From Gemmatimonadota bacterium (GTDB lineage: Bacteria; JAAXHH01), in NCBI GenBank assembly GCA_009838645.1, contig VXRC01000008.1, positions 1-64,000 of the forward strand: 64,000 bases of DNA, written 5' to 3'. Positions 4,390 to 36,713 of the stretch are shown piece after piece. Position numbers and translations under genes: made by a program. Below the pieces are notes generated by a model. The model was not told the origin of the DNA, did no database searches, and saw nothing but the letters and a program-made list of their open reading frames with translations. The number at the start of each line of letters is the position of its first letter. Position 1 is the stretch's first letter.

Positions 4390-5622
4390 TCACCCATCGC
4401 GGACCTGGCCACGTAGCTCGATAGGAACGTGATGATGACCAAACCGCGCGGCCCACCAGTCCTTCAGCAGGCACGATGGAAATTGGTAGCCTGCTTCGCG
4501 TGACTCCAGGTAACCGTCATGTTCGAGTATGTCGAGGACCTCCGAGATGCGATCAGGTGCGTCATCTACTAGCGGTAAGTATAGGTTGCCGAGTATTCGT
4601 TGTACTTCGGGAGTCAGGACTTCCTTCGTGGATGTTTCTGCCAGTACTTCCATAGCAATGGTGTGGTCCTGATCATCGCCCAAAGCATCCTTCAGGCGCG
4701 TTTCATAGTGAATAAGATCGTTTTGTCCGGCTGGTCCTAGAAGTACGTTTTTATATACGACTTCCACATCCAAAACAGACACCTGGTTTTTGCCCTGTAA
4801 GAGTGCGTGATCGGTCAGCCTGGCGAAAAACGACTGGACTTGATGCGGAATCCCTATTCCGAGTCGCTCATAAACAGCTTCTGCAACATCCGAATCGATC
4901 TTAAGTGTCGAATTGTCGGCGAGTCGAAACAGACACTCGATGGTGGCTTCACGGCTCCATGGGCCTAATCTAAATGGGTCGAGATAGTTAATGCGATCAG
5001 GTATGCCGAGTCGACGTACGAGTGGAGTCAGTCCAATACTACCGGATACCATGAGTACTAGCGATCCTCCACTAAAGTGTTGCAGCACTCCTCGCAGCCA
5101 ACTCAGAAACTCGTCGACTTTCTGCCGGCCTCCCTCTGCATGGAGCATTCGTTTGAGAAAAATCGGCATTTCATCGACGACAAGGAATACCGGGTTTGCA
5201 TGAGCAGCACAGTATCGAAGTAAACCGCCGCCATGTTCCTTCCAGTTCTTTTCGCTCAAACCGGCCCGTACTCTCAGCCGGAAATCAAAAGCACCGATTT
5301 CGTCAAAACTCTCGGTGAACCATCGCTGCATCGTTCGTGCAAATCGTGATGAGATCGAACGAATCGGGTGTACCGCTTCCGCAATATCCGAGATCACATC
5401 TTCCGGGCCAGTCGCACCTTCGACGTCAGCAAACAGAAACACCCATCCGTCTGCCTCAAGTCGACGCCCCAGTTCCCGTGCGATACTGGTCTTGCCCATA
5501 CGACGCTGACCTGTCAGCAACACGTGGTTTCCATTCCGCACTCGCTGATCGAGTATGCGTAGTTCGTTTTCTCGATCAAAAAAGTCTTCACCACTCACCC
5601 ATGGACCGGTAACAGATTTCAT
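4390..5622 (-). CDS. Archaeal-ATPase-like AAA protein
   Basis: A 410-residue P-loop ATPase. Walker A is GQRRMGKTS (38-46), Walker B is VFLVVDEMP with D150-E151, a sensor-like strand LVLMVSGS follows, and the C-terminus (about 310-395) looks like a winged helix. The opening FFDRENELRILDQRV is characteristic of the archaeal ATPase/MNS group, often found in mobile or defence loci. It is the first gene of a two-gene operon with the TPR ATPase downstream. AGGAG lies 5 bases before the ATG at 5622, behind a promoter with two tandem palindromes. The partner ATPase probably works with it as sensor or effector, but no nuclease, protease or membrane effector domain is recognisable in either protein. 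Confidence 0.82.
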   Translation of the reverse strand: MKSVTGPWVSGEDFFDRENELRILDQRVRNGNHVLLTGQRRMGKTSIARELGRRLEADGWVFLFADVEGATGPEDVISDIAEAVHPIRSISSRFARTMQRWFTESFDEIGAFDFRLRVRAGLSEKNWKEHGGGLLRYCAAHANPVFLVVDEMPIFLKRMLHAEGGRQKVDEFLSWLRGVLQHFSGGSLVLMVSGSIGLTPLVRRLGIPDRINYLDPFRLGPWSREATIECLFRLADNSTLKIDSDVAEAVYERLGIGIPHQVQSFFARLTDHALLQGKNQVSVLDVEVVYKNVLLGPAGQNDLIHYETRLKDALGDDQDHTIAMEVLAETSTKEVLTPEVQRILGNLYLPLVDDAPDRISEVLDILEHDGYLESREAGYQFPSCLLKDWWAARFGHHHVPIELRGQVRDG

Positions 5623-34334: not shown

Positions 34335-34835
34335 ATGAAGGACCTCGGCCCACTGCTGCTGGTTATGTTATTCGCTTGTGCCGTGGCCTGCGGCAACGAC
34401 GAAGACAGTCCCGTTTCCACGACACCTGATCAGGGGCCGTTCGACAGCGGCCCCAGAACCGGCAACGTCGTCTTCAGTCCCGGAGACGTCCGTTCCACCA
34501 CGCAGTGGGGCACGGATGACTATGAACTGAACGCGGCCGCCATCAGGGGAGATACGCTCGCGGTTTCCGTGTCATACAGCGGCGGATGCAGAGCGCACCG
34601 GTTCACGCTCGTTGCCGCCGAGGTCTTCAAGGAGTCGGATCCCGTACAGCTCGATGTCGCCATCGCCCACGACGCCGACGGCGACCCCTGCGAGGCCTAC
34701 CCGACGGAAGACTACCAATTCATCCTCGATCCGATCAAGGCACGGTACAAGGCGTCGTATGGGTCCGGGGCGGGCACCATCGTCCTCGGGCTCGACCGAG
34801 CACCGGACGTTCCACTCGTCTACGAATTCGATTAG
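34335..34835 (+). CDS. Putative lipoprotein
   Basis: A 166-residue protein with a lipoprotein signal: MKDLGPLLLVMLFACAVAC, where the lipobox AVAC is followed by Gly. The mature part has a Thr/Ser/Pro linker and a beta-rich domain (GDTLAVSVSYSGGCRAHRFTLVAAEVF, DADGDPCEAYPTEDYQFILDPIK). Two cysteines in the mature domain could form a disulfide. I do not recognise the family. The ATG at 34335 gives the signal peptide and has GGAA upstream; the frame is open to 34215. Outer- or inner-membrane anchoring after Lnt processing is likely. Confidence 0.7.
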   Translation: MKDLGPLLLVMLFACAVACGNDEDSPVSTTPDQGPFDSGPRTGNVVFSPGDVRSTTQWGTDDYELNAAAIRGDTLAVSVSYSGGCRAHRFTLVAAEVFKESDPVQLDVAIAHDADGDPCEAYPTEDYQFILDPIKARYKASYGSGAGTIVLGLDRAPDVPLVYEFD

Positions 34836-34875
34836 CAGAATCCTGGGCAGTGCGGCTCGACGCGGATTCGATTAG
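34826..34875 (+). repeat. Direct repeat around a stop codon, at an island edge
   Basis: ATTCGATTAG occurs at 34826-34835 (ending in the lipoprotein TAG stop) and again at 34866-34875, 40 bases later. It lies where base composition changes into the DUF5131/TcmP module. Confidence 0.5.
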
Positions 34876-34897
34876 ATGAATGTACGAAAGAAAGCGT

Positions 34898-34931
34898 TTG
34901 ACAGGCTGATATTACTAAACATATATTTAGT
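34898..34931 (+). promoter_or_regulatory. Promoter with overlapping palindrome for DUF5131/TcmP
   Basis: TTGACA (34898-34903), 18 bases, TATATT (34922-34927). An 18-base inverted repeat ACTAAA-N6-TTTAGT (34914-34931) covers the -10 box, as an operator would. The first gene starts about 45 bases further on. Confidence 0.6.
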
Positions 34932-34973
34932 TTAACATGCATATTCTAAGGCAATTTACCGGGAAAGATTGAT

Positions 34974-35726
34974 ATGCCTTCCTCAATAGAGTGGACAGAC
35001 GAGACCTGGAACCCGGTAACAGGTTGCAGCCGGGTGTCTCCCGGTTGTGATCATTGTTACATGTTTACACTATATCCGAGACTAAAAGGTATGGGTGTAT
35101 CAGGTTACCGTTCATCCCCCGATGATGTGACGTTGATACCCGATCGACTGGAGATTCCATTTACCTGGAAAAACCCAAGACATGTTTTCGTCAACAGTAT
35201 GTCGGATGTATTTCATAATCGAATACCCTTCGACTTCATATATCGCATTTTTCGGGTAATGCAGGAATCTTCCGATCGTCATGGCCATGTTTTTCAGGTG
35301 TTGACAAAAAGACCAGGGCGTGCGGTCGCTTGGTGGAAAGCATATGAAGATTCCTTTCCCGACGGCTGGCCTCCTGGGGTATGGATTGGGACATCGGTCG
35401 AGAACCAAAAATACGCGCCACGGCTAACCGTACTCGCACGATTACCTGCAAAAATTCGGTTTGTATCAGCCGAACCCTTGCTCGAGCAGGTTGACCTAGA
35501 ACCATGGCTGGAAAACGGTAGGTTACAGTGGGTAATTGTTGGTGGAGAGAGTGGTCCAAGCGCTCGACCCATGGAACTGAATTGGGTACGGTATCTACGC
35601 GACCAGTCTGTAAATGCGAGTGTTCCTTTTTTTCTGAAGCAACTTGGTGGTAGTCGAAATAAGCAGAGCGGGGATACTGCAGTCGTTGATGGCCGTCAGT
35701 GGAGAGAAATGCCCATTCAGGAGTAA
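34974..35726 (+). CDS. DUF5131 (phage Gp37/Gp68-like) three-Cys protein
   Basis: A 250-residue protein starting MPSSIEWTDETWNPVTGC. The three cysteines C18, C25 and C28 (GCSRVSPGCDHCY) give the family's three-Cys motif, which resembles a radical-SAM iron-sulphur site. Also typical are RVFVNSMSDVFH-like (HVFVNSMSDVFHN), HVFQVLTKRPGRA, WIGTSVENQ, RFVSAEPLLE and VIVGGESGPSARPM. The family is found on phages and mobile elements; the reaction is unknown. It is followed after 9 bases by TcmP, its usual partner. The gene is more AT-rich than its neighbours, consistent with transfer. GGGAAAG lies 6 bases before the ATG. Confidence 0.9.
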   Translation: MPSSIEWTDETWNPVTGCSRVSPGCDHCYMFTLYPRLKGMGVSGYRSSPDDVTLIPDRLEIPFTWKNPRHVFVNSMSDVFHNRIPFDFIYRIFRVMQESSDRHGHVFQVLTKRPGRAVAWWKAYEDSFPDGWPPGVWIGTSVENQKYAPRLTVLARLPAKIRFVSAEPLLEQVDLEPWLENGRLQWVIVGGESGPSARPMELNWVRYLRDQSVNASVPFFLKQLGGSRNKQSGDTAVVDGRQWREMPIQE

Positions 35727-35735
35727 AGTAGCATT

Positions 35736-36587
35736 ATGGTTTCATTCGGAGGTATATGGACTCAAAAGAAACTTGAGATACTGGGCGAGTATCTGGACAG
35801 GTACACCACAGTACTGAAAAACCAAAGGTTTCGCCTGATCTACGTTGATGCATTCGCAGGTGAAGGAGAATGGAGGTCTGGTGAAAGATCAGGTTATACG
35901 ACAGATGTATATGGTGATTTTCAAAAGGTTCACGAAGGTTCACCCAAGATCGCCTTAAGTGTTCAAAAACGGCCTTTCGATAGGTTCGTATTCATTGAAA
36001 AAGACCCTAATCGTTGCTACAAGCTAGAAAGTTTGAGATCTGAGTTTCCAAACCGTGACATGGAAATAAGGCATGGAGATGCTAATTCCGAAATAGACTC
36101 ATTTTGCAAAGGAATGGGGAATTACGATCGTGCCGTCGTCTTTCTTGATCCTTTTGCCACCCAGGTTTCTTGGAACACAGTTTCTAATTTGGCTCAAACT
36201 GAGAAGGTAGACTGCTGGATTCTGTTCCCCCTGAGTGCGATCGCACGCATGATGCCCGTTGAATCTGAACCTTCGGAAGCTATGGCTGGTCAACTAGATA
36301 GGATCTTTGGAAAGCGACAATATTGGTGGGAAGATGTTTATCATCCTCCAGCTCAGCAGAACATGTTTGATGAAGAACCAGGCCAAGTTCGTACGCAAGG
36401 CAGCAAACAAATCGCCGCTTGTTACCGCAATCGTCTTGAAGACGTCTTTAAGATGGTCGCGCCTACTCCTCGTACTTTCTACAATTCCAAACAGTCCCCC
36501 CTGTTCGAGTTGTTTTTTGCAGCCAGTAACCCAACTGGTGCACCAAAAGCCGTGAGAATTGCAGACCATATCCTTAAAAAATGGTGA
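35736..36587 (+). CDS. tcmP: Three-Cys-motif partner protein TcmP
   Basis: A 283-residue protein with WTQKKLEILGEYLDRYTTVLKNQRFRLIYVDAFAGEGEW near the N-terminus, the hallmark of TcmP. The fold resembles a methyltransferase-like Rossmann domain: DAFAGEG for the first glycine loop, FVFIEKDPNRCYKLESL, IRHGDANSEI and AVVFLDPFATQVSW for the DPF-type motif. It is always reported next to three-Cys radical-SAM-like proteins, as here (9-base gap). The biochemical role is unknown. AT-rich composition matches the partner gene. A 19-base hairpin spans its stop codon. Confidence 0.9.
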   Translation: MVSFGGIWTQKKLEILGEYLDRYTTVLKNQRFRLIYVDAFAGEGEWRSGERSGYTTDVYGDFQKVHEGSPKIALSVQKRPFDRFVFIEKDPNRCYKLESLRSEFPNRDMEIRHGDANSEIDSFCKGMGNYDRAVVFLDPFATQVSWNTVSNLAQTEKVDCWILFPLSAIARMMPVESEPSEAMAGQLDRIFGKRQYWWEDVYHPPAQQNMFDEEPGQVRTQGSKQIAACYRNRLEDVFKMVAPTPRTFYNSKQSPLFELFFAASNPTGAPKAVRIADHILKKW

Positions 36588-36602
36588 CTTAAATCAAGTC
36601 AC
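36584..36602. terminator. Hairpin at the end of tcmP
   Basis: GTGACTT-N5-AAGTCAC (36584-36602), perfect 7-base arms, includes the tcmP stop. There is no T run on the plus side. Read on the minus strand it is followed by six T residues, so it would terminate transcription entering from the right. On the plus strand it may simply protect the mRNA end. Confidence 0.45.
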
Positions 36603-36713
36603 GCCAATACAGAGTTTCCGCCAAAAACTATCTTCATATTAGATTAACCTAGGCCGACCAGAGGTAAGTTTCACCAAAGCGTAGATGTCCGGCAATCGAA
36701 CGAGGTACTCACC

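Follow-up and report, generated by a model that had tools for sequence, protein, structure and literature searches.

A DUF5131/TcmP gene pair with a predicted LexA box, inserted between two host genes of a Gemmatimonadota bacterium

In many bacteria and phages, proteins of the DUF5131 family, also called 'phage Gp37/Gp68', and their TcmP partners are annotated as unknown. The closest described systems are two candidates listed by PADLOC: PDC-M41, in which DUF5131 (M41B) and TcmP (M41A) are adjacent and whose models carry no regulation, and PDC-M30, in which a protein of the same DUF5131 family accompanies a longer TcmP (about 365 aa) that carries an additional region at its C-terminus. A TcmP gene has also been described in the tubercle bacilli. 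In BCG, the TcmP gene BCG_2748c comes after recX (BCG_2749c) (PMC7387457), and in M. tuberculosis, recA-recX and Rv2735c are transcribed together (PMC3062782); the two TcmP genes are equated here because each is the gene after recX. Upon mitomycin C treatment, Rv2734, Rv2735c, recX and recA form one cluster of differentially expressed genes (PMC5057432). Rv2735c is transcribed in response to DNA damage (PMC3062782, PMC5057432), as is predicted of the TcmP gene described below, and is unlike the latter in its location in the chromosomal recA operon.

The pair considered here lies in a window of 64,000 nt (positions 1 to 64,000 of contig VXRC01000008.1, assembly GCA_009838645.1) from a Gemmatimonadota bacterium that is probably sponge-associated. 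The 3.8-Mb genome to which the window belongs (G000) was compared within a set of 12 genomes of the genus, G000 included, the others being cited by G number where they need to be told apart. The features of the locus are as follows.

34823-34841 and 34863-34881, + strand: two imperfect copies of a 19-nt direct repeat (84%), left of the insert only
34836-34875, no strand: left remnant of the host intergenic spacer, from comparison of spacers; assignment approximate
34876-36678, + strand: inserted segment, ends approximate, missing at the corresponding intergenic site of 10 of the 11 other genomes of the genus
34898-34927, + strand: sigma-70-like promoter, TTGACA-18-TATATT (11/12, consensus match only)
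34914-34931, + strand: predicted LexA (SOS) box, ACTAAACATATATTTAGT, overlapping the -10 element
34974-35726, + strand: DUF5131 ORF, 250 aa (PF07505; PADLOC PDC-M41B)
35736-36587, + strand: TcmP ORF, 283 aa (TIGR04474; PADLOC PDC-M41A)
36584-36602, no strand: inverted repeat (hairpin) over the TcmP stop codon, not conserved in G005
36679-36713, no strand: right remnant of the host intergenic spacer, from alignment to the G004 spacer

Both genes are read from the + strand with a gap of 9 nt, and both are recognised by profile. DUF5131 matches Pfam PF07505 (E=3.9e-81) and, over its full length, PADLOC PDLC04639 (M41B, E=8.2e-83), while TcmP matches TIGR04474 (E=2.5e-57) and PDLC04635 (M41A, E=8.7e-86, residues 3-282, full length). 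By these matches the pair is the PADLOC candidate system PDC-M41, with a TcmP of the short (M41) form, unlike that of PDC-M30; on this point the original prediction, in which the two figure only as conserved partners of unknown function, has been slightly overtaken. The compact, AT-rich cassette that it described is real, extending over ~1.8 kb, with a GC content of 49% in DUF5131 and 45% in TcmP (GC3 of 41-44%) against about 63-65% in the surroundings.

To the left of the insert in the window lies a gene for a 166-aa lipoprotein-like protein, and to its right a 365-aa gene. These two genes are adjacent, no more than about 170 nt apart and with the site empty, in 10 of the 11 other genomes of the genus; only G005 carries the cassette at the same place. 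Comparison with these relatives, which had been proposed as a means of finding the exact ends, placed them at ~34876 and ~36678, because the window is homologous to G005 over 34876-34932 and 36588-36684, and alignment to the empty G004 spacer picks up again at 36679 (score 18.5, against 12.5 for the best of 300 shuffles). The condition set to refute the earlier reading, a cassette fixed and ancestral in the lineage with no sign of gain or loss, therefore does not hold, and gain or loss is supported. On a tree of recA and the flanking genes, the window falls within a group of empty genomes, and the first branch of the same clade is G005; by parsimony this distribution requires two changes. A recent transfer between G000 and G005 is unsupported, as their DUF5131 genes (82.8% DNA identity, 63.6% at third positions) are about as diverged as the adjacent host gene (85.6% and 67.1%); because of this similar divergence, the history of the cassette would fit either a single ancient gain followed by repeated losses or two gains at the same site. 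A related cassette is found at a different place in G001, and a second DUF5131 subfamily, about 44-46% identical to that of the window, is present in G001, G004, G009 and G011. In two copies the reading frames are disturbed: the TcmP frame of G005 is broken near its start (L002, about 4892-4981), by assembly error or decay, and the G011 cassette (L126, L127; G011:C20) is degenerate, with DUF5131 and TcmP split and an in-frame stop in TcmP.

Neither an integrase or transposase nor terminal repeats were found in the insert, the one repeat being on its left side. That direct repeat had been noted at the left edge and is present, but it does not bracket the insert: its first copy forms the 3' end of the host gene for the lipoprotein-like protein, the right end has none, and the occupied site of G005 lacks the repeat, for which reasons it was rejected as a target-site duplication. 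Similarly, the inverted repeat proposed as a terminal hairpin exists, but its T-run is on the minus strand only, it is not conserved in G005, and it was rejected as a sense-strand terminator; a terminator scan gave two candidates against 2.2 expected. With no mobility gene, no bracketing repeats and no sign of addiction, the suggestion that the cassette is selfish was not borne out.

The feature that gives this locus its interest is the palindrome overlapping the -10 element. It had been described as an 18-base palindrome over the promoter; it is real, but imperfect (8/9 pairs). The promoter itself is a consensus match in a region where scanning found two promoters against 2.8 in shuffles, no excess. 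Each of the 12 genomes encodes one clear LexA, the lexA sites carry an exact ACTAACC[AG]TATGTTGTGT in all 12, and the recA promoters of the genus carry ACTACACAAATGTTTGG-type boxes. A symmetric LexA matrix was built from lexA, recA and four other sites, all of them non-cassette, and by this independent matrix the cassette box scores 23.7 bits, ranking first in the 64-kb window, where the next site reaches 10.8. Boxes precede six of the seven DUF5131 cassettes of the genus at a shuffle P <= 0.002, the other cassettes scoring 23.7, 21.6, 20.2, 15.2, 13.5 and 8.1 bits, the last (the seventh) with P = 0.05, and they extend to the second DUF5131 subfamily despite its identity of only about 44-46%. 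A genome-wide pattern search allowing up to three mismatches found four sites in G000 and 68 across the 12 genomes, four of these at cassettes, with reversed-pattern controls giving zero sites in all genomes but one; the cassette boxes of G000 and G005 are each the closest to consensus in their own genome. The palindrome of the window thereby stands well above what chance would give. Control of the cassette by LexA is, on this evidence, very probable. The claim of a regulated promoter is supported accordingly in its substance, but the operator is a predicted box for the host LexA rather than one specific to the cassette.

Further LexA-type boxes were noticed in the genus. One, ACTAAACATATTTTGTGT (L183, site G000:C49:97611), is conserved in 12/12 genomes and closely precedes a divergent ORF of 262 aa that is resolvase-like by eye. 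Small Cys-containing proteins of about 130-156 aa, with a CCGRxM...CPxCGxRR stretch, are encoded 3' of such boxes in several genomes (L281, L286, L189), and a 308-332-aa protein (TGNSHYCYSNSLHMCL) is encoded 3' of a strong box in G008, G004 and G003 (L279, L282, L284).

In other phyla, the consensus boxes were chosen after promoter inspection or from general background, so the shuffle tests there are partly post hoc. Among 44 cassette loci, mainly Chloroflexota and from sponge-type metagenome genomes, 39% of promoters have a GAACATATGTTC box that matches at 10 or more of 12 positions, against 0.2% of their dinucleotide shuffles. That this is the SOS box of these hosts is supported by a 12/12 copy upstream of recA in one Caldilineaceae host genome and by related boxes upstream of lexA. 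Of 150 Mycobacteriales genomes, 17 have TcmP matches (13 of them above the family cut-off), with DUF5131 also present at 12 TcmP loci, and a TCGAAC-N4-GTTCGA box at 10/12 or better precedes 6 of 11 cassettes, against 0.7% of shuffles. The neighbour of Rv2735c, Rv2734, is presumably a DUF5131 protein. No recA was found in 12 stretches (9-12 kb each) around DUF5131/TcmP of Mycobacteriales, and the recA-operon arrangement therefore rests on the published work. A clear box precedes no more than about half of the cassettes in Chloroflexota and Mycobacteriales, and 34 other DUF5131 loci gave none when scored for the GAAC type, from which their hosts' own LexA boxes may differ. DUF5131/TcmP loci in other phyla appear often to carry the box type of their own hosts.

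What the two proteins might do is suggested by their folds. The three-Cys motif noted in DUF5131 (C18-x6-C25-x2-C28) is present, and Cys18, Cys25 and Cys28 are invariant in an alignment of 52 homologues. The classic radical-SAM spacing is CX3CX2C, with respect to which the CX6CX2C of DUF5131 is non-canonical. The structure model (pLDDT 89.6) matches TIM barrels in Foldseek, with the radical-SAM TIM barrel spore photoproduct lyase (SplB) among the top matches, weakly (E=2e-3, TM 0.42), and several non-radical TIM barrels scoring as well or above it. The profile TIGR04471, 'radical SAM mobile pair A', is matched weakly by 51 of the 52 homologues, the window protein being far under the cut-off, and no convincing homologue of solved structure was found by sequence. 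The three invariant Cys could hold an Fe-S cluster, and the modelled scaffold resembles a TIM barrel; a radical-SAM-type enzyme, which would use SAM chemistry, is therefore the likeliest identity of DUF5131. SplB, which is SOS-regulated in several species (PMC8565304), differs from it in Cys spacing, in lacking convincing sequence similarity and in having no methyltransferase-fold partner.

TcmP has a class I methyltransferase Rossmann fold, with motif I (DxFAGxG) and motif IV (DP) seen in alignment and model. Its structure model (pLDDT 88.3) best matches the rRNA base methyltransferase RlmJ (E=1.5e-8), comparison with solved structures by sequence gives weak matches of RsmD/RlmJ type, and 14 of 35 TcmP members match PF03602, which we take to be the RsmD family. 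These likenesses suggest an RlmJ/RsmD-like class I methyltransferase. The amino-methyltransferases of N6/N4 type carry a motif IV of (D/N)PP(Y/F). The TcmP alignment lacks it, D138-P139 being followed by F or Y to give DPF/DPY, where RlmJ/RsmD have DPPY, and catalysis is for this reason not assured; TcmP further differs from RlmJ/RsmD in its predicted LexA link and its pairing with DUF5131. Radical chemistry and methylation by the pair are therefore reasonable readings of the models.

The two partners have not always travelled together. Similar DUF5131 proteins pair with either short (M41) or long (M30) TcmPs, and the TcmP class switches at least six times on the DUF5131 tree, showing that DUF5131 and TcmP recombine. 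TcmP also diverges faster than DUF5131, and two members of a mixed TcmP set give a weak GMT-wHTH match in the M30 C-terminal region.

The surroundings of the pair vary. In a Dehalococcoidia clade, DUF5131, with or without TcmP, is flanked by a type IIG-like methyltransferase and a PLD-Snf2 helicase (L032 3807-12808, also L033, L034 and L036); TcmP is present except in L033, where the helicase directly follows DUF5131 and no TcmP was found, and a LexA-type box precedes DUF5131 in L032 and L036. The other sponge cassettes mostly have ordinary metabolic genes beside them; the neighbours of the window's own pair were judged from ORFs. As to the proposed co-occurrence with defence genes, this one clade is embedded among such genes, and a coarse test, which counts families and not proteins with any match, gave no obvious general enrichment (131 PADLOC families in 118 proteins near the cassettes, 116 in 108 far from them). 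Among phages, DUF5131 is found in 158 records and M41-type TcmP in only 2 of 50,697, while eight TcmP pattern matches in viral_contigs yielded none confirmed. Paired genes occur in Gordonia phage Fairfaxidum and two Synechococcus phages; in Fairfaxidum (L226 4980-6921), gp43, annotated only as a methyltransferase, is a TcmP convergent with the DUF5131 gene gp42, and the two lie between the integrase and the immunity repressor.

Several explanations can be weighed against these observations. In anti-phage defence proper, the pair would recognise and chemically alter phage DNA or RNA, and the LexA box would let it respond to infection or prophage induction. Such a role would accord with the listing of PDC-M41 and PDC-M30 among phage-defence candidates, with the Dehalococcoidia cluster and the position of the Fairfaxidum pair, and with the faster divergence and repeated class switching of TcmP. 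It would also suit two published observations, namely that TcmP SMa2243 is listed beside the Hna defence helicase SMa2245 (PMC12445080) and that, among 100 P. aeruginosa strains, 32 carry PDC-M30, of which 68.8% are phage-resistant (PMC10855318). However, the sponge cassettes have mostly metabolic neighbours, with PADLOC families about as numerous near as far in the coarse test, the recA operon of the tubercle bacilli suits repair better, and phages themselves carry DUF5131. Defence proper is considered rather unlikely. The phage records could instead point to a phage-derived moron or anti-restriction base-modification pair lingering in chromosomes, with LexA control inherited from prophage-style regulation, for which the pairs in Gordonia and Synechococcus phages also speak. 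This is improbable given that the cassette sits between two host genes in an insert without phage genes, that the box type tracks each host's own LexA and not one donor type, and that M41-type TcmP is so rare in phages.

A selfish pair resembling a toxin-antitoxin system would share the two-gene, mobile and stress-inducible layout, and one copy, in G011, is degenerate. Both proteins are, however, enzyme-sized and enzyme-like, with no toxin fold among the structure matches of either; empty sites are common, and L033 shows DUF5131 leading directly into the helicase without TcmP. Such a nature is accordingly very improbable.

The explanation preferred here, by a slight balance of probability, is that of a horizontally patchy two-gene PDC-M41 stress module, repressed by LexA, induced by DNA damage and acting on nucleic-acid bases; taken by itself, the action on bases is moderately probable. 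The host LexA repressor would hold the cassette off until, upon DNA damage, RecA filaments would trigger LexA self-cleavage, freeing the promoter at 34898-34927 so that both proteins are made. DUF5131 would then act as a radical-SAM-type enzyme, with an Fe-S cluster on its three Cys and a TIM-barrel-like scaffold, and TcmP as a class I methyltransferase like those methylating rRNA bases, or as a derivative using the fold for base recognition. Together they may modify or restore particular nucleic-acid bases under genotoxic stress, the source of which could be damage or a phage, either infecting or induced. Computation supports the insertion into an empty site, the LexA box in the genus and two other phyla, the pairing, the partner exchange and the predicted folds; we infer LexA binding, the Fe-S cluster, SAM chemistry, a base substrate and a benefit to the cell. 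The pair is most likely SOS-induced, for repair or anti-phage stress, between which its supposed purpose is split.

A limited literature search found no paper linking DUF5131/TcmP to LexA or the SOS response, and the LexA link is an addition of the present analysis to the PDC-M41 models. More broadly, and tentatively, with a little under an even chance of being right, DUF5131-TcmP may be a branch of the SOS response that has gone unrecognised, is widespread and moves horizontally, in which a radical-SAM-type enzyme and a methyltransferase-fold partner repair or edit nucleic-acid bases, with host-supplied LexA boxes of at least three types in three phyla and swaps of the TcmP partner. The LexA link in three phyla, together with the literature on the tubercle bacilli, makes of this orphan pair a DNA-damage or phage-stress system that can be tested, and tells under which condition the phenotype of the pair should be sought.
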